A stretch of 64,000 nucleotides of DNA from Betaproteobacteria bacterium (GTDB lineage: Bacteria; Pseudomonadota; Gammaproteobacteria; Burkholderiales; Rhodocyclaceae), in the NCBI GenBank assembly GCA_020621405.1, contig JAHRYN010000001.1, forward strand, positions 1 to 64,000, in the 5' to 3' direction. Both the position numbers and the translations under genes were made by a program. Positions 946-10,339 of this stretch are shown here, one piece after another. The notes under the pieces are model-generated. The model saw only the letters and a program-made list of their open reading frames with translations. It was not told the origin of the DNA and did not search any database. How positions within the stretch are numbered: position 1 is the first letter of the stretch; the number at the start of each line of letters is the position of its first letter.

Positions 946-1512
946 GGCATCTCCTGATTAAAACGTGGCGCGCATCCGGACCGGACGCGCGGTGTTGCCG
1001 GCAAGCTTTGCCGCGGTGGCGGCAGAAAACGGCGTCCCGGAGGGATTTCCCCCAGTCGGCAGCCGCAAAGCCGTCACAGCATCAGTCATGCCAGTCCGTC
1101 AGGCTGGCGCGCCGTAAGGCCCGAAGCGTCGCCTTCAGCGGTTGGTGTTTGATGCGTCCCCGGCTTCGGGTGATCGTCCATCTGCGGTCGGCCTGTGCCG
1201 GATCAGGGCTTGTGCGGGATGCTCCGGCGGCTGAACCAGGGCTCGCGACGCGGCGGATTTTGTCCGGCGTCGCTCGGGTCATTGAGCGGGATCAAACAAG
1301 CGATGGCGTTTTTGGTAAAACGTGCACCTGTCCCTCTCGATACGGTGCGACCGGTCGCGATAGCCACTTGTCCGTCGCCGGCATGTGCGGGATGGCGGCG
1401 ATCCGGGACGGATGACCGGACGGTTTCCGGTGTGGTCGAGAGGTGGTGATTTTCGTGCGGGTGCCGGCGATGTTGTCGGCGTGGCCTTATGGATCACGGG
1501 AGGAGAGCGCTC
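946..1512. other. Intergenic region upstream of the acyl-CoA synthetase operon
   Basis: This is about 570 nt between two divergent genes. Open frames here have no ribosome-binding sites and no recognisable protein. The one regulatory-looking element is an FNR-like dyad at 1282-1295, listed separately. I see no RNA gene. Confidence 0.5.
1282..1295 (+). promoter_or_regulatory. Candidate FNR/Anr-type binding site
   Basis: TTGAG-CGGG-ATCAA matches the FNR/Anr/Dnr consensus TTGAT-N4-ATCAA at 9 of 10 half-site bases. A TAAAAC hexamer lies at 1316-1321, close to where a -10 box would be if the dyad were centred at -41.5 (class II activation). The first gene downstream starts at about 1513. Binding is inferred. 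Confidence 0.45.
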
Positions 1513-3288
1513 TTGCTGAATTCATCCATCATCCGCAAGACGCCGACCGATCTGCGGGTCAGGCCCAATCTGAACGACTACGATCTGCAGCGCAGGATGT
1601 TCGGCTGGGACGAAGCCGCGCGGGCGCTCGAAGGGCTGCCTGGCGGCGGGCTGAACATTGCCTGGGAAGCTGTTGATCGACACGCGTCCGGCCCGCTGCG
1701 CGACAAGACCGCTTTCCGCTTTCTCGGCGCGGACAGCGCATCGCGGGACATCAGCTTCGCCGAACTGTCCCGTCTGACCAATCGTTTTGCCAATGTCCTG
1801 CGCAGGCTGGGTGTGCGCAAGGGGGAACGGCTGTTCCTGCTCGCCGGCCGCATGCCGGAGCTTTATGTGGCGCTGCTCGGCGGCCTGAAGAGCGGCGCGG
1901 TGGTGTCGCCGCTGTTTTCCGCCTTCGGTCCCGAACCCATCATCACCCGTGTCAATCTGGGTGGCTGCAAGGTCTTGCTGACGACGGACCTCCTTTACCG
2001 GCGCAAGGTGTCGCAATGGCGTGAGCGCATGCCGTCGCTCGAACTGGTGCTGCTGGTCGGCGAAGACGGCGGCCGGACCGACATACCCGGCACCTTCGAT
2101 CTGGCGACCCTGATGGACGAAGCCGATGACGCCTGCGACATCGAGCGGACCTCACCCGAAGACATGGCGCTGCTGCATTTCACCAGTGGCACGACGGGCA
2201 TGCCCAAGGGCGCGATCCACGTACATGCGGCGGCGGTGACGCACCATGCGACCGGGCGATACGCGCTGGATCTGCATCCGGACGATATCTACTGGTGCAC
2301 CGCCGATCCCGGCTGGGTCACCGGTACGTCGTACGGCGTCATCGCACCCTTGCTGCACGGCGTGACATCGATCATCGACCGCGAGGAATTCGACGCGGAG
2401 CGCTGGTACGGCATCCTTCAGCAGCAGGAGGTCAGCGTCTGGTACACCGCGCCGACCGCCATTCGCATGCTGATGAAAGCCGGCGACGGACTGGCCGCGA
2501 AATACCGCTTCCCGCGCCTGCGCTTCGTTGCCAGCGTGGGCGAGCCGCTCAATCCGGAGGCGGTGTGGTGGGGAAAGAAGGTGCTCGGGCTGCCGATCCA
2601 CGACAACTGGTGGCAGACGGAAACCGGCGGCATCATGATCGCGAACACGCCGGCTTTCGACATCAAGCCCGGTTCGATGGGACGTCCGCTGCCCGGGGTC
2701 GATGCCTTCATCGTCCGGCGCAACGAGGCGACCGGTGAAATCACGGTCGTGGCAGAGCCGGATGTCGAGGGAGAACTGGCGCTGCGCAGCGGCTGGCCGT
2801 CGATGTTCCGCGGCTACCTCGACAATGAGGCGCGTTACCGCAAGTGCTTTGTCGGCGACCTCTATCTCACCGGCGATCTGGTCCGGCGGGACGCAGATGG
2901 CTATTTCTGGTTCATCGGCCGTGTCGATGACATCATCAAGTCGGCCGGGCATCTGATCGGCCCGTTCGAAGTCGAAAGCGCGCTGATGGAGCATCCTGGC
3001 GTGGCCGAAGCGGGCGTCATCGGTACGCCGGACCCGGTGGTCGGCGAGAGGGTGAAGGCCTTTGTGTCGCTCCGGCAGGGATACGATGACAGCGAAGCCT
3101 TGCGTACCGAATTGCTCGCCCATGCGCGCAAGCGCCTCGGGGCGGCGGTTGCTCCGAAGGAAATCGCCTTTCTTGCCGCACTGCCGCGCACGCGCAGCGG
3201 CAAGATCATGCGCCGGCTGCTGAAGGCGCGTGAACTTGGCCTGCCCGAGGGTGATGTGAGCACGCTGGAAGGAGGAGCCAGTTCATGA
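1513..3288 (+). CDS. AMP-forming acyl-CoA (acetate-CoA) synthetase
   Basis: Adenylates a short-chain acid and transfers it to CoA. Typical ANL signatures are seen in order: the P-loop [14 protein letters not shown], the aromatic/adenine region ending in NWWQTETGG, the hinge [12 protein letters not shown] and the C-terminal catalytic lysine in [11 protein letters not shown]. The layout resembles acetate-CoA ligases of the AcsA type, about 590 aa. I prefer the TTG at 1513 because GGGAGGAG lies 7 nt before it; an in-frame ATG at 1489 has no visible Shine-Dalgarno. The stop overlaps the next start (ATGA), so it is the first gene of a five-gene operon. Substrate (acetate, propionate or other) is not determinable here. 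Confidence 0.85.
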
Positions 3289-4292
3289 TCGCGCCGCCAC
3301 CACCGTCCGGTCCGGTTCCCTACAACCGTGATTTCGCCCTGCTGCTGCTCACCGACATGCTGCGTGTCCGCCGCATGGAGGAAAAGTCCGCCGAGCTTTA
3401 CGGTGCCGGGAGGATCCGCGGTTTTCTGCATCTATATATAGGCGAGGAGGCGGTTGCCGTCGGCGCGCTGCACGCACTGCAGGCCCACGACAACCTTGTG
3501 ACGACCTATCGCGAGCACGCGCATGCGCTGGTGCGTGGCATGCCGATGAGCGCCATCATGGCCGAGATGTACGGCAGGCAGGAGGGCTGTTCGCAGGGAC
3601 GTGGCGGCTCGATGCATCTGTTCGATCGGACGACCCGGCTGTTCGGCGGCAACGCCATCGTCGGCGCAGGGCTGCCGGTGGCGGTCGGTCTGGCACTGGC
3701 GGACAAGATGCTGCGTGCATCGCGTGTGACGGCCTGCTTCTTCGGTGAGGGAGCGGTAGCCGAAGGCGCGTTTCACGAGTCGATGAACCTGGCGGCGCTG
3801 TGGCGCCTGCCCGTGCTGTTCTGCTGCGAGAACAATCGCTACGCGATGGGGACGGCGCTGGAACGTTCGGAGTCGCAGACGGATCTGTGTGCCAAGGCGA
3901 GTTCATACGGCATGCCGGTCCTCCGGGTGGACGGCATGGACGTCGTGGCAGTGCACGAAGCGACGCTGCAGGCGCAGGCCCGGGTGAGGGCGGGCGAAGG
4001 TCCTCTGTTCGTCGAGTACCAGACCTACCGCTTTCGCGCGCACTCGATGTTCGACGCTGAGCTCTACCGCAGCCGGGAAGAAGTCGAGCAGTGGAAAAAA
4101 TGCGGACCGATCCATACCTACACTGCGCGCCTGAAGCGGCAGGAACTGCTCGACGAGGAGGCGTTTCTCGCGCTCGATGCGCAGGTGGCGGCTGAAGTGG
4201 ACTCGGCCGTGGTGTTTGCCGAGGCCGGCAGCGATGAGACCTTCGAGTCGATGATGGCCGACGTCCATACGTCAGGAGGGCTGTCGCGATGA
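3285..4292 (+). CDS. 2-oxoacid dehydrogenase E1 component, alpha subunit
   Basis: A thiamine-diphosphate-dependent decarboxylase subunit of the pyruvate/acetoin/branched-chain dehydrogenase type, 335 aa. The TPP motif is clear: GEGAVAEG begins it and CENN closes it about 30 residues later. The N-terminal [15 protein letters not shown] and the segment [11 protein letters not shown] are typical of PdhA/AcoA. A short AT-rich codon run (CTA TAT ATA) at about 3432 is unlike the rest of the gene. It overlaps both neighbours by 4 nt. The substrate (pyruvate, acetoin or 2-oxoacid) is not resolved by sequence alone. Confidence 0.88.
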
Positions 4293-5272
4293 GCCGGCGC
4301 ATCAGCTATCGGGAAGCGCTGCGCGAGGGATTGCGCGAAGCGCTGCTGAACGATCCGCGCGTGCTTCTGATGGGCGAGGATGTGGGCCGGTACGGCGGTA
4401 CCTACGCCGTATCGAAGGGGCTGCTCGACGAGTTCGGGCCGGACCGCATCCGCGATACGCCGCTGTCCGAACTGGCCTTCGTCGGCGCCGGCATCGGTGC
4501 CGCGCTCGGCGGACTGCGGCCGGTAGTCGAGGTCATGACAGTCAATTTCAGCCTGCTGGCGCTCGACCCCATCGTCAATACCGCGGCGCTCTATCACCAC
4601 ATGTCCGGCGGCCAGTTCTCGGTGCCGCTGGTGATCCGCATGGCCACCGGCGCCGGCCGACAGGTGGCGGCACAGCATTCGCACAGCTTCGAGGGCTGGT
4701 ATGCGCACATCCCCGGCATCACGATACTGGCGCCAGCAACAGTTCGCGATGCGCGCTACATGCTCGCGCCGGCGCTGAGCGATCCGGATCCGGTGCTGAT
4801 CTTCGAACACGCTGCGCTGTACAACATGGAGGCGGAACTCGGGGACGAAGAGCCGGTGGACATCCGCTCGGCCAGGCTGATGCGTGACGGCAGTGACGTC
4901 GCGCTGATCACCTATGGCGGCAGCCTGTACAAGACGCTGGCCGCGGCGGAACAGCTGGCCATGCGTGGCATCAGTGCCGCGGTGCTGGATCTGCGCGTGC
5001 TGCGTCCGCTCGACACCGGGGCGATCGTCGCGCTGACCCGCCAGTGCCGCCGCGTGGTCGTGGTCGACGAGGGCTGGCGCAGCGGAAGCCTGGCTGCGGA
5101 AGTGATGGCCCGCATCGTCGAACATGCCTTCTACGAACTTGACGCGCCGCCGGCCCGTGTGTGTTCGGAGGAAGTGCCGGTTCCCTATGCGCGTCATCTC
5201 GAAGAGGCCGTACTGCCGCAGCCCGAAAAGATCATCGCTGCGGTCGAAGCCTTGCTGGGTGTGTCGTCATGA
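4289..5272 (+). CDS. 2-oxoacid dehydrogenase E1 component, beta subunit
   Basis: Partner of the alpha subunit (327 aa), forming the alpha2-beta2 E1. It starts with the family pattern [14 protein letters not shown] and has [19 protein letters not shown], then [20 protein letters not shown]. The C-terminal transketolase domain includes RVVVVDEGW. It is coupled by 4-nt ATGA overlaps to E1 alpha and E2. Family assignment is secure, substrate is not. Confidence 0.9.
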
Positions 5273-6444
5273 TCGAATTCCGGCTGCCCTCACTCGGTGC
5301 TGACATGGACGAGGGCACGCTGCTCGAATGGAAGGTCCAGCCGGGCGACATCCTGAGCAAGGGGCAGATCGTCGCCATTGTGGATACCTCGAAGGCGGCG
5401 GTGGATATCGAATCGTGGCACGAGGGCGAGGTCGCGCGGTTGCTGGTGCAACCGGGGCAGTTGATGCCGGTGGGGACGGTCATGGCGCTGCTGCTCGAGC
5501 CCGGCGAAACCGCCGCGGATGCGGAGCGCTACCAGCCGGACGCCCGATTGCCTGCATCGGCTGACGCGGCATCGGCCGGACCGATGCAGTCCGGCCCGGT
5601 GATGGCCGAAAGGCGGGCGGTGTCGCCGGTGGCCCGGCGGCGGGCGGGGGAACTGGGCATCGATCTGCAGGGTGTGAGCGGAAGCGGCCCGAATGGCGTC
5701 GTCACGCTGCAGGACGTCGAGCGGGCGGCTGGCGCTGCGGCGCCGAAGGACCGGCCGGACGGGATGCGTCACGCGATCGCGGCGGCGATGAGCCGGTCGA
5801 AGCGGGAAATTCCCCACTATTACCTTGCCGAACCGATACCGATGGCGCGTGCGCTGGATTGGCTGGCGCAGGAAAACGCGGCGCGTCCGGTGACAGAACG
5901 CCTGCTGCCGGCGGTGCTGCTGCTGAAGGCCGTGGCGCTCGCGCTGCGGCGTTATCCGGAATTCAACGGTACATTCATCGACGGCTCGTTTCATCCGGCG
6001 TCGCGCGTCAATCCCGGGGTCGCGATCTCGCTGCGACAGGGCGGGCTGATCGCACCGGCGCTGTTCGACGCCGATCGCAGGCACCTGCCGGAGCTGATGC
6101 GCGATCTGAGTGACCTGGTCAAGCGCGTGCGAGCCGGATCGCTGCGCAGTTCGGAACTTTCGGAATCGACGATCACGGTCACCCAGCTCGGCGATCAGGG
6201 CGTTGAATCGGTATTCGGCGTCATCTATCCGCCGCAGGTCGCCCTCGTCGGATTCGGCCGCGTGACCGAGCGGCCATGGGTCGAAGGCGGGAAAATCGTG
6301 GTGCGCTCCGTGCTGACGGCCAGTCTTGCAGCCGACCACCGGGTTTCCGACGGTCATCGTGGAGGGTTGTTCCTGGCTGCGTTGCGGGATCTGATGCAGC
6401 AGCCGGAAGCTCTGGATGCGGCCCCGTCGGGAGAGACGAAATGA
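5269..6444 (+). CDS. Dihydrolipoamide acyltransferase (E2) component
   Basis: The 391-aa E2 has three parts. An N-terminal lipoyl domain (about 1-80) carries the lipoylated lysine K42 in DTSKA. A peripheral-subunit-binding domain (about 120-155) contains [16 protein letters not shown] and [14 protein letters not shown]. The C-terminal catalytic domain carries the acyltransferase signature DHRVSDG. There is a single lipoyl domain, as in acetoin or branched-chain complexes. The start is the ATG at 5269, giving an ATGA overlap with E1 beta; the frame is open further upstream but family homology begins here. No E3 gene is present in the operon, so E3 must come from elsewhere. Confidence 0.9.
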
Positions 6445-6698
6445 ATGTTCAGGACGTGAAAATCGGCATCCTGTCGGTGCTGGCCTCCGTGGCCCCCGAA
6501 CTGGAGGCGGAGCTGCTGGTTCCGGACCGTCCGCTGCGACGGCAGGTTGATCTCGATTCCATGGACTGGCTCAATTTTCTGGTCGGCCTGCACCAGACGT
6601 TCGGCGTAGACATTCCGGAGGCCGATTACGCGCGCCTGGTCACGCTTGACGATATCGAACGCTACCTCTTTGCCCGGCTTGACCGGCCGCAAAGCTAG
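6441..6698 (+). CDS. Acyl carrier protein
   Basis: An 85-aa ACP-fold protein. The phosphopantetheine attachment serine is S40 in VDLDSMDWL, and the helical pattern and acidic character fit. It overlaps the E2 stop by 4 nt, so it is translationally coupled to a 2-oxoacid dehydrogenase operon rather than to fatty-acid synthesis genes. Infer that it carries an acyl group made by the synthetase or the E1/E2 complex; this is not shown by the sequence. Confidence 0.8.
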   Translation: MNVQDVKIGILSVLASVAPELEAELLVPDRPLRRQVDLDSMDWLNFLVGLHQTFGVDIPEADYARLVTLDDIERYLFARLDRPQS

Positions 6699-7073
6699 GC
6701 GATGTGCAGGCTGATTGCGGCCGTCCGCGTCCGATCCGGGCCGGGAGCGCAAAGCGCTCGCCCGTTGACCGTGCGCAAGCGCCGGCGGCTGCCGCATCGA
6801 TAAGGTACGGAACCTTCGAGGACCGTGTGAATCCGTCGGTGCATCCGTTGTGGCACCCAGCGGCAGTCCGTAGCCGGACGCCCGGGAATGCGTTTTCCGT
6901 GAATTCTGTTTTGGGGATCCCTCTGCTACAGTCCGGCGCTCGCAGGGGGCGAGGTGCTGCCCGCTCTGGCCTCGATCGGCCACTGGCCGAAGGCCTCCGT
7001 ACAAGAATGAGAATGGTTTTTCCGCATTCATGGTCGATCGCCGTGTCTGTCTGTCCTGTCTGGAAACTGAAGA
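6699..7073. other. Intergenic region, nothing recognised
   Basis: About 375 nt between the ACP gene and the hydroxylase gene. No convincing ORF, tRNA or strong terminator was seen. A TACAGT hexamer at 6927-6932 could be a -10 box, but there is no good -35 partner. Confidence 0.4.
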
Positions 7074-8141
7074 ATGTCTGATCTGATGACCCTGTGGCTG
7101 AGCATGATCGAATGGTCGAGCAGCCATGTCGTGATTCCGGTGCTGCTGTTCCTGCATATCAACGACGCTTCGCTGAATACGAAGGAAATTGCCGAAGCCG
7201 GTCTGGTCGTGATGATCCAGGTTAGCATCATCGCATTCGTGTTCCGCCCGCTGGAAAGCATCGTTCCGGCCGAAAAGTGGAGCGACCGCAAGCTGACAGG
7301 CATCGATCGTCTCTATACGCTGCTGATGCTGTTCGGGCTGTTTCCGATATTCAGCTACGTGGTGATGTCGCCGTTCAGCCACATGTTCGGCAATCTGGAC
7401 GCCGCGCCTGGCAGCGGCGATTCGGTTTTTGATCTGCGCCACCAGATTCCTTGGCTCGACGGGCATCCGCTCGTGCTGCTAGGCCTGTACTACCTCGTCT
7501 ACGACTTCGTCTACTACTGGCTGCACCGCATCCAGCACATCGTGCCGTGGTGGTGGGCACTGCACAGCATGCACCACAGCCAGCGCCAGATGAGCTGCTG
7601 GACCAACGACCGCGGCAGCTATCTCGACGGGATGGTGCAGTCGGTGATTCTCGCGACCGTCGGCATCGTGATGGGGGTCGATCTGGCGGAATTCGCGGTG
7701 CTGACGATGTTCAGCGAGCTGATGCAGAACTTTTCCCATGCCAACGTACGCATCGGCTTCGGCCCGGTTCTGGAACGGATTTTCGTAGATCCTAAGTTCC
7801 ACCGCCTTCATCACATGAAGGTCGATGAGGAGCGTACCTGGCTGCACAACTGCAACTTCGGGCAGGTCTTCTCGATCTGGGACGTGCTGTTCGGTACTGC
7901 GCTGTATGGGGAGCCGGTGCGGCCGACCGGTGTCACCGATCCGGTCGTGGATGCCGACAATGGCCGGGGACTCATCGCCATGCAGTGGTACACGCTGAAG
8001 CGCTTCTGGGGGGCTTTCCGCCGGCCCGCAGGCTGGCGTCCGGGTGACGTCGGTTTCGGTGAGGACTATGAACCGATCCCGTCCAGTTACCGGATGGAAG
8101 GTGGTGCCGGCCACGCGGATGCTGCGCCGGTAACTCATTGA
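7074..8141 (+). CDS. Sterol desaturase / fatty acid hydroxylase family protein
   Basis: A 355-aa integral membrane di-iron oxygenase of the fatty acid hydroxylase superfamily. The histidine boxes are visible: HRIQH, HSMHH and HRLHH, plus single histidines near HANVRIGF. Hydrophobic segments lie near residues 20-60, 85-105 and 140-160. Such enzymes hydroxylate or desaturate lipids using O2; the substrate is not predictable. It has no operon partner. Confidence 0.85.
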   Translation: MSDLMTLWLSMIEWSSSHVVIPVLLFLHINDASLNTKEIAEAGLVVMIQVSIIAFVFRPLESIVPAEKWSDRKLTGIDRLYTLLMLFGLFPIFSYVVMSPFSHMFGNLDAAPGSGDSVFDLRHQIPWLDGHPLVLLGLYYLVYDFVYYWLHRIQHIVPWWWALHSMHHSQRQMSCWTNDRGSYLDGMVQSVILATVGIVMGVDLAEFAVLTMFSELMQNFSHANVRIGFGPVLERIFVDPKFHRLHHMKVDEERTWLHNCNFGQVFSIWDVLFGTALYGEPVRPTGVTDPVVDADNGRGLIAMQWYTLKRFWGAFRRPAGWRPGDVGFGEDYEPIPSSYRMEGGAGHADAAPVTH

Positions 8142-8793: not shown

Positions 8794-9219
8794 ATGGCTG
8801 CAGAACGCACTCTTTCGATCATCAAGCCCGACGCCGTTGCCAAGAACGTGATCGGCAAGATTTATCAGCGCTTCGAAGACGCAGGTCTGAAGATCGTCGC
8901 TGCGCGCATGGCCCAGCTGTCGCGTGCCGAAGCCGAAGGCTTCTACGCGGTGCACCGCGAGCGTCCGTTCTTCAAGGATCTGGTCGACTTCATGGTGTCC
9001 GGCCCGGTCATGATCCAGGTACTGGAAGGTGAAGGCGCGATCGCCAAGAACCGCGACCTGATGGGTGCGACCGACCCGAAGAAGGCTGCTCCGGGCACCA
9101 TTCGCGCCGATTTCGCCGATTCCATCGACGCCAACGCTGTGCACGGTTCCGATGCCCCGGAAACCGCCGCAGTTGAAATCGCTTACTACTTTCCCGCGCT
9201 GAACGTCTATTCGCGTTGA
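8794..9219 (+). CDS. ndk: Nucleoside diphosphate kinase
   Basis: Transfers the gamma phosphate between NTPs and NDPs. It is 141 aa, the usual length, starting [17 protein letters not shown]. The active-site histidine is in the NAVHGSD motif near the C-terminus. The start at 8794 gives the canonical N-terminus; in-frame sequence upstream has no homology. It is the first gene of the long housekeeping block and is followed 10 nt later by rlmN. Confidence 0.98.
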
Positions 9220-9229
9220 AAGGGATCGC

Positions 9230-10339
9230 GTGACACGCACCAACCTGCTGCAGTTTGACGCGGACGGCTTCGCCGGTTTTTTCGCCAGTCTTGGCGAAAA
9301 ACCGTTCCGCGCGCGGCAGGTGATGCGCTGGATACACCGCAACGGCGAAGGCGACTTCGCGCAGATGAGCGACGTTGCCAAGTCGTTGCGTGCAAAGCTT
9401 GCGGACATCGCCTGTGTCGAGGCGCCGGTGCCGGTGCGCGACAGCACCAGTACCGACGGCACGCGCAAGTGGCTGATCGACGTCGGCGCGGGCAACGCGG
9501 TCGAAACCGTGTTCATTCCCGAAGAGCGTCGCGGCACGCTGTGCATTTCGACGCAGGCCGGCTGCGCGCTCGACTGCGCCTTCTGCTCCACCGGCAAGCA
9601 GGGTTTCAACCGCAATCTTGAAGTGTCGGAAATCATCGGCCAGCTGTGGCTCGCCAATCGCGCGCTGGGTGCAGTGCGCGGCGGCGAGAATGACGGCGAG
9701 CGGGTGATCTCCAACGTCGTGATGATGGGCATGGGAGAGCCTCTGGCCAATTTCGATGCCACCGTCGCGGCGCTGCGCCTGATGCTTGACGACAACGCCT
9801 ATGGATTGTCGCGCCGTCGGGTGACCGTATCGACCTCGGGCATCGTGCCGGCAATGGACCGTTTGCGCGACGCCTGTCCGGTTGCGCTCGCGGTATCGCT
9901 GCACGCGCCGAACGATGCGCTGCGCGACGAATTGGTGCCGATCAACCGGAAGTATCCGCTGCGCGAACTGCTGGCGGCGTGCAATCGCTACCTGGATCGC
10001 GCGCCGCGCGACTTCATCACTTTCGAATATGTGATGCTGGACGGCGTGAATGACAGCGATGCCCATGCACGGGAGCTGGTCGCGATTGCGCGCCAGGTTC
10101 CATGCAAGTACAACCTGATCCCGTTCAATCCGTTTCCGCAGGCACCTTTCGGGCGCTCGCCGAAAGAGCGCATCCGCGCTTTCTCGGAAATACTGATGGC
10201 CGAAGGTATCGTGACGACGACGCGCAAGACGCGCGGCGATGACGTCGATGCCGCCTGCGGGCAACTCGCCGGGCAGGTGCTCGACCGAACCCGGCGCACG
10301 CGCAAGACCATTCCCCTCGTGGAGGTTCCAGCACGGTGA
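9230..10339 (+). CDS. rlmN: 23S rRNA/tRNA adenine-C2 methyltransferase RlmN
   Basis: A radical-SAM enzyme that methylates A2503 of 23S rRNA and A37 of some tRNAs. It is 369 aa with a GTG start. The cluster [11 protein letters not shown] supplies the three cysteines of the CxxxCxxC motif. [11 protein letters not shown] and VSLHAPND are typical of the family, and the C-terminal part holds [13 protein letters not shown] with the catalytic cysteine. It overlaps pilW by 4 nt (GTGA). Confidence 0.97.

Follow-up and report, generated by a model that had tools for sequence, protein, structure and literature searches.

A conserved bacterial operon joining an acetate-CoA ligase, pyruvate dehydrogenase components and a dedicated acyl carrier protein: a possible oxygen-regulated acetyl-activation module

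A five-gene operon has been analyzed in a 64,000-nucleotide (nt) stretch (hereafter the window) from the 3.8 Mb genome of a member of Rhodocyclaceae (assembly GCA_020621405.1, contig JAHRYN010000001.1). The genes occupy positions 1513-6698 on the forward strand and encode an acetate-CoA ligase (ACS; CoA, coenzyme A), the E1 alpha, E1 beta and E2 proteins of a pyruvate dehydrogenase (PDH)-like complex, and an acyl carrier protein (ACP). Comparison of sequences from at least two phyla indicates that the five genes are a conserved inherited unit, in which ACS rather than E2 appears to be the constant partner of the ACP. Our preferred explanation, to which we give a probability of roughly 0.45, is a module for acetyl activation, regulated by oxygen, in which ACS would charge the dedicated ACP and the PDH would be a second source of acetyl groups.

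A conserved five-gene unit

The initial annotation described an operon joined by ATGA overlaps and containing E1 alpha, E1 beta, a single-lipoyl E2 (K42) and an ACP with S40 in a DSM motif, all of which were found in place. Direct reading of the bases gave ATGA at all four junctions (3285, 4289, 5269 and 6441), and the start codon of ACS is TTG, preceded by GGGAGGAG, with an alternative in-frame ATG at 1489. ACS (1513-3288, + strand, as are the other four), which is of the short AcsA type, scored 925 bits against the acetate-CoA ligase model NF003313 (cut-off 729), E1 alpha (3285-4292) 442 bits against the PDH E1 alpha model TIGR03182 (cut-off 394), and E1 beta (4289-5272) 369 bits against NF006667 (cut-off 321). 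The typing of ACS and E1 alpha suggests acetyl-handling enzymes, which would fit the module proposed above.

The E2 protein (5269-6444) combines a single lipoyl domain with E3-binding and catalytic domains (Biotin_lipoyl, E3_binding and 2-oxoacid_dh in Pfam), and its structure model agrees with solved E2 catalytic domains; it fell below the PDH E2 model TIGR01349 (212 bits, cut-off 445), and no NCBIfam E2 model was passed. Among 109 aligned rows, the lipoyl Lys42 was conserved in 99%, and of the catalytic residues His357 in 100% and Asp361 in 97%. Thr303 was present in 99% of these rows, a place where 75% of 12 compared E2 proteins have Ser, and an extra Arg256 (100% of rows) and Ala173 were further differences from those other E2 proteins, only 12 in number. 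A loss of CoA binding by E2 was considered and rejected as a reading of these three differences, which could not be mapped to CoA contacts. No gene for dihydrolipoamide dehydrogenase (E3) lies within the operon. The initial annotation drew attention to this absence, which is ordinary: two lipoamide dehydrogenases above cut-off are encoded elsewhere in the genome, each adjoining another E2 gene, and the operon E2 keeps its E3-binding domain.

The ACP (6441-6698) matched PP-binding in Pfam (34 bits, cut-off 21) and is not of the AcpP type (best ACP model 25 bits, cut-off 70). In an alignment of 137 rows, not de-duplicated, Asp39 and the phosphopantetheine site Ser40 were invariant, Asn45 was present in 89% and His51 in 74%. 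When helix II was compared with that of the organism's own AcpP, the latter had Glu at the place of Asn45 and Glu-Glu-Glu opposite His-Gln-Thr of the operon ACP; this loss of acidic residues fits a private partner.

The same gene order was sought in other genomes, as the initial annotation had proposed, and it recurs across phyla. A search of a genome collection with the ACP yielded 363 stretches containing a relative, and the five genes stood in order in 66 of the best 80, which were kept (ACS was matched in two pieces in two of them and E2 in one). Twelve of these best 80 held a shorter run ending at the ACP, mostly at a contig end, including one with only a piece of E2 preceded by 2.4 kb (L087), another of the 80 begins at the ACP (L059), and the remaining one is an ACP fusion described below (L091). 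One locus (L044) is the same operon as another (L015) and was left out of the later tests except that of the 10-base box described below; the other loci were not de-duplicated. Among junctions that could be measured in the best-sampled loci, with starts chosen by script, an exact 4-nt overlap was kept, in gene order, at 38 of 69, 57 of 74, 50 of 76 and 36 of 80, and E1 alpha and E1 beta shared one open frame at 11 loci. With the same order in different phyla and the 4-nt overlaps often kept, the operon arrangement is more than chance.

Since these loci had been chosen by the ACP, the presence of the unit was retested with samples chosen by E1 beta, E2 and ACS, each including the organism's own genome. 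Among 398 genomes of the phylum, 14 had an E1 beta match of at least 63% identity (next best 49%), and all 14 had ACS before and the ACP after it, while three outgroup loci (L144, L145 and L189) had neither. The E2 sample covered 330 genomes of the order and gave 30 matches at E 1e-65, with the ACP following in 30/30. Plasmid records contributed 29 E1 beta matches at 60-80% identity, and the unit was present in 19 of the 19 examined; the genera were Burkholderia, Paraburkholderia, Cupriavidus, Methylocystis, Leisingera, Sulfitobacter, Tropicibacter, Sinorhizobium, Ciceribacter, Azospirillum, Photobacterium, Rhodococcus, Streptomyces and Embleya, so that Alphaproteobacteria and Actinobacteria are also represented. 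An otherwise identical operon lacking the ACP, which the initial annotation had named as refuting its view, was not found in these samples; together with the invariant Ser40 and the two phosphopantetheinyl transferase (PPTase)-family genes of the genome, they bear out the view that the ACP genuinely belongs to the unit. The operon E1 beta proteins (31 rows) formed a branch separate from 18 outgroup rows with support of 100/99, in a tree for which the tool warned of long branches. The ACP was detected in only 9 of 61 relatives (own genome counted) and, within the genus, in the window's genome and one of 12 others; the unit is therefore accessory.

ACS as the constant partner of the ACP

The ACS sample covered 274 genomes of the class, 14 of which contained the ACS clade (E 1e-200, at least 60% identity). 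The ACP was detected in the same 14 genomes at E 1e-17 or better; weak ACP matches in four genomes with no clade ACS (G085, G119, G195 and G318; E 1e-9 to 1e-10) were not counted as members. E1 adjoins ACS in 10 of the 14. Four genomes had ACS and the ACP without the clade E1 and E2, two in one genus (G144 and G268, 99% and 87% complete) and two in another (G128 and G259, 99% and 100% complete), and clade E1 beta was absent from all four (best match 37% identity, or none at E 1e-40). The ACP directly follows ACS in the first pair and lies on another contig in the second. Because these four genomes keep ACS and the ACP without this E1/E2, the constant partner of the ACP appears to be ACS, not E2, and the PDH its usual addition.

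The catalytic motifs of ACS (WWQTET and PX4GK with Lys564) and Arg539 were each present in 96/96 rows. Arg539 aligns with Arg584 of the S. enterica enzyme, which we take to be a CoA contact. The stretch around S. enterica Arg194 is missing from the operon ACS; this was set aside as proof that the enzyme has lost CoA binding and uses the ACP, since the same stretch is absent from the most similar short AcsA of solved structure (9g79) and Arg539 is fully kept.

A Pat-type ligase/GNAT gene is divergent from ACS in all four PDH-less genomes, although a contig end cuts the copy in G268. Such genes in G144 and in a further genome, G180, encode CoA-binding, succinyl-CoA-ligase-like, ATP-grasp and GNAT domains; in G180 (L264) the distance from this gene to an isolated ACP is about 1 kb, with the full operon elsewhere, and at L081 such a gene immediately precedes ACS. 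In one genome that also holds the operon, an ACP of the operon family is fused to a Pat-type GNAT domain (L016, positions 8893-9690, the same as L091). This fusion was rejected as a general design, being found in one genome only and covered to 80% by 0 of 146 matching plasmid records; its structure model was poor (mean predicted local distance difference test score, pLDDT, 63). Other GNATs lie near L099, L128 and L141. Taken together, Pat-type or GNAT genes near or fused to ACP or ACS were recorded at L016/L091, L081, L099, L141, L260, L261, L264, L293 and L294, and full-length Pat matches at 4 of 129 loci versus 0 of 20 controls, so Pat/GNAT is a recurrent, mostly rare, neighbour of ACP and ACS. 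The L128 protein (positions 740-2251) has two universal stress protein (USP) stretches besides its GNAT domain, and its gene precedes the operon copy of a Rhodococcus by about 2 kb. A neighbour cluster at six loci (C13; e.g., L020, L038, L060 and L074) comprised genes of up to 935 amino acids with an ACP-like start followed by an AMP-ligase, as domains were judged by eye.

Anaeroboxes and genomic setting

From 120 loci, 107 with ACS, 100 of these with enough upstream sequence and 99 after removal of the duplicate were used for analysis of upstream regions (350 nt). The FNR-type anaerobox TTGA-N6-TCAA was present in 26 of 99 regions, that of the window included, whereas shuffled sequences had a mean of 0.34 and a maximum of 3 (200 rounds) and random windows had 34/1980 and 22/2000. 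With the 10-base FNR box and at least nine matches, 27 of 100 regions were positive versus 0.58 expected. The window's anaerobox (TTGAGCGGGATCAA, 1282-1295, + strand) is about 220 nt upstream of the ACS start, farther than in most copies, and a scan of 1000-7100 gave no sigma-70-like promoter. Excerpts of PMC11784457 describe the TTGA-N6-TCAA box and one FnrN-dependent stress gene. The box was found at 0 of 5 actinobacterial loci. DosR/OsdR-type boxes were considered and rejected: a full match occurred at two of six scanned loci, as it did in 3-4% of shuffles (uncorrected for six tests), and the other four were unremarkable; the S. fungicidicus locus had two full OsdR-like matches.

Stress-type families were found near 45 of 87 loci, whereas of 20 control regions 2 had them (p 0.0008), and USP, Hsp20, CBS, Crp/Fnr or BON families near 29 of 87 versus 1 of 20 controls (p 0.01). 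The operon of Rhodococcus DK17 has genes for a histidine kinase with two GAF domains and for a LuxR-type regulator nearby. Phosphoenolpyruvate (PEP) synthase was present near 8 of 87 loci versus 1 of 20 controls, and genes for Pta and acetate kinase lie beside the Sulfitobacter copy. No gene was a common neighbour, the largest cluster, a Lon-like protein, occurring in 11 of 73 loci.

Several observations concern other neighbouring genes. Downstream of the ACP in Rhodocyclales-type loci, indolepyruvate oxidoreductase-like genes were noted by eye (IorA at 8 loci and IorB at 7; e.g., L023, L080, L072 and L101). In the window, the operon is followed at 7074-8141 by a gene of the fatty-acid-hydroxylase/sterol-desaturase family, OlsE-like but below cut-off; it was found only in the window's genome among 13 genomes of the genus, and that stretch is therefore accessory too. 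The start of the contig (1-59) reads like a tRNA 3' end, where ARAGORN made no call.

Possible functions and comparison with known systems

In the proposed module, one of the two PPTase-family genes would provide the enzyme that makes holo-ACP. ACS would convert acetate to acetyl-AMP and then transfer the acetyl group to the phosphopantetheine of the ACP, although CoA might be an acceptor as well. E1 and E2, borrowing the cell's E3, may add pyruvate-derived acetyl groups to the same pool, either via CoA or from the lipoyl arm to the ACP. Acetyl-ACP would thus be a protein-bound acetyl supply under oxygen shortage, and candidate acceptors could be a Pat-type GNAT acetyltransferase or a lipid or polyester pathway. 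A wider version, which we consider improbable, holds that low-oxygen acetyl metabolism in at least two phyla runs partly on ACP instead of free acetyl-CoA, with ACS and a private PDH charging the ACP and acetyl-ACP serving as donor for Pat-type GNATs, which would couple acetyl supply to protein acetylation.

Several points weigh against the proposed module. While the module itself can be seen in the sequence, acetyl-ACP is something that we infer from it, and the chief doubt is that the ACP may bind ACS without carrying acetyl. As Arg539 of ACS is kept in every row, CoA is probably still used by this enzyme. Distances between ACP sequences at 96 loci correlated with those of E2 (0.89), ACS (0.85), E1 alpha (0.83) and E1 beta (0.77), a pattern that shows joint descent and does not single out ACS. 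An exact anaerobox was absent from 73 of 99 upstream regions; the difference in loci with at least two stress families was weak (21/87 versus 1/20 controls, p 0.07); the stress queries were drawn from the test loci, which favours the test set even with near-identical matches removed; and none of the tested stress families was found in the window's 64 kb.

The strongest competitor, with perhaps one chance in four, is an ordinary second ACS and PDH making acetyl-CoA at low oxygen, in which the ACP would be a subunit that binds or regulates ACS and need not carry acetyl. The presumed CoA-contact Arg and all catalytic motifs of ACS, as well as His357 and Asp361 of E2, fit an output of acetyl-CoA, and an ACP that co-occurs with ACS could equally be its subunit or its substrate; however, the invariance of Ser40 and Asp39 is what would be expected if pantetheinylation were required. 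It is less probable that the main route is acetyl transfer from the E2 lipoyl arm to the ACP with ACS secondary, even though the two genes are adjacent and co-inherited (30/30), ACP distances track those of E2 best, and the PDH-like complex of ripostatin biosynthesis would be a precedent for making acyl-ACP. The initial annotation raised two acyl-loading alternatives. Exchange of acyl groups with E2 is not the one best supported, given the four genomes in which ACS and the ACP occur but this E1/E2 does not; loading by the synthetase fits better.

An anaerobic ATP branch is about as doubtful as the E2-to-ACP route: acetyl from pyruvate would pass through the PDH, ACS in reverse would use AMP and pyrophosphate to yield acetate and ATP, and the ACP would shuttle acetyl. 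The low-oxygen setting suggested by anaeroboxes and stress neighbours, the nearby PEP synthase genes and the Pta and acetate kinase genes of Sulfitobacter would suit it, and reverse ACS has been reported in Syntrophus aciditrophicus in portions of PMC4992975. However, ACS and ACP occur without this PDH in four genomes, PEP synthase is also near one control, and Pta/AckA were found at one locus only. Lipoylation uses octanoyl-ACP, and the E2 and ACP genes are adjacent, but the idea that the ACP carries octanoate for lipoylating the operon E2 is very improbable and was set aside because four genomes have the ACP and ACS without this E1/E2; the lack of the acidic helix II residues of AcpP also counts against it.

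Acetyl-CoA supply is a central metabolic node, and a widespread, often oxygen-regulated ACS with a private ACP suggests a non-CoA acetyl carrier in primary metabolism. If true, this would account for the second set of ACS and PDH in some low-oxygen gene islands. Several copies of the operon resemble the OsdR/DevR regulons and the Burkholderia cenocepacia lxa locus in having USP, Hsp20, nitroreductase, CBS, Crp/Fnr and a DosS/DosR-like pair nearby, as far as the gene content of hypoxia or dormancy islands is given in excerpts of PMC5069765 and PMC9733578. Pyruvate dehydrogenase and acyl carrier are not mentioned in the main text of PMC5069765, nor are pyruvate and acyl carrier in that of PMC6127331, or acyl carrier and dihydrolipoamide in that of PMC9733578. 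No description of the five-gene unit was found in open-access full-text literature, including the available portions of PMC5069765, PMC9733578, PMC11784457 and PMC7950203; this silence is weak evidence of novelty because most subscription journals lie outside the search.

Compared with the PDH complex, the operon proteins share all three protein families, the lipoyl Lys, the E3-binding domain and the DHRxxDG motif, whereas the E1 beta is on a separate branch, ACS and the ACP are linked, there is no own E3, and E2 carries Thr303 where most of the 12 compared proteins have Ser. The short AcsA enzymes under Pat-type control have in common with the unit the ACS family, the catalytic Lys in PX4GK (presumably the Pat motif) and, in the four PDH-less genomes, the divergent Pat-type gene, but the constant dedicated ACP sets the unit apart, as does the single genome in which ACP and Pat-type GNAT are fused. 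A PDH-like loading complex of ripostatin biosynthesis is said to make acyl-S-ACP with E1/E2-type proteins; in contrast, the operon proteins are of primary-metabolism (acetate/pyruvate) types with an ACS partner, and no polyketide synthase was seen in the annotated flanks examined. Acyl-ACP synthetases such as AasS are AMP-forming enzymes that load fatty acids on ACP, and AMP-forming loading of the ACP would be the same chemistry, although the operon ACS is typed as an acetate ligase. Each protein is a member of a known family, and their combination suggests that acetyl groups may be carried in a manner not yet described.

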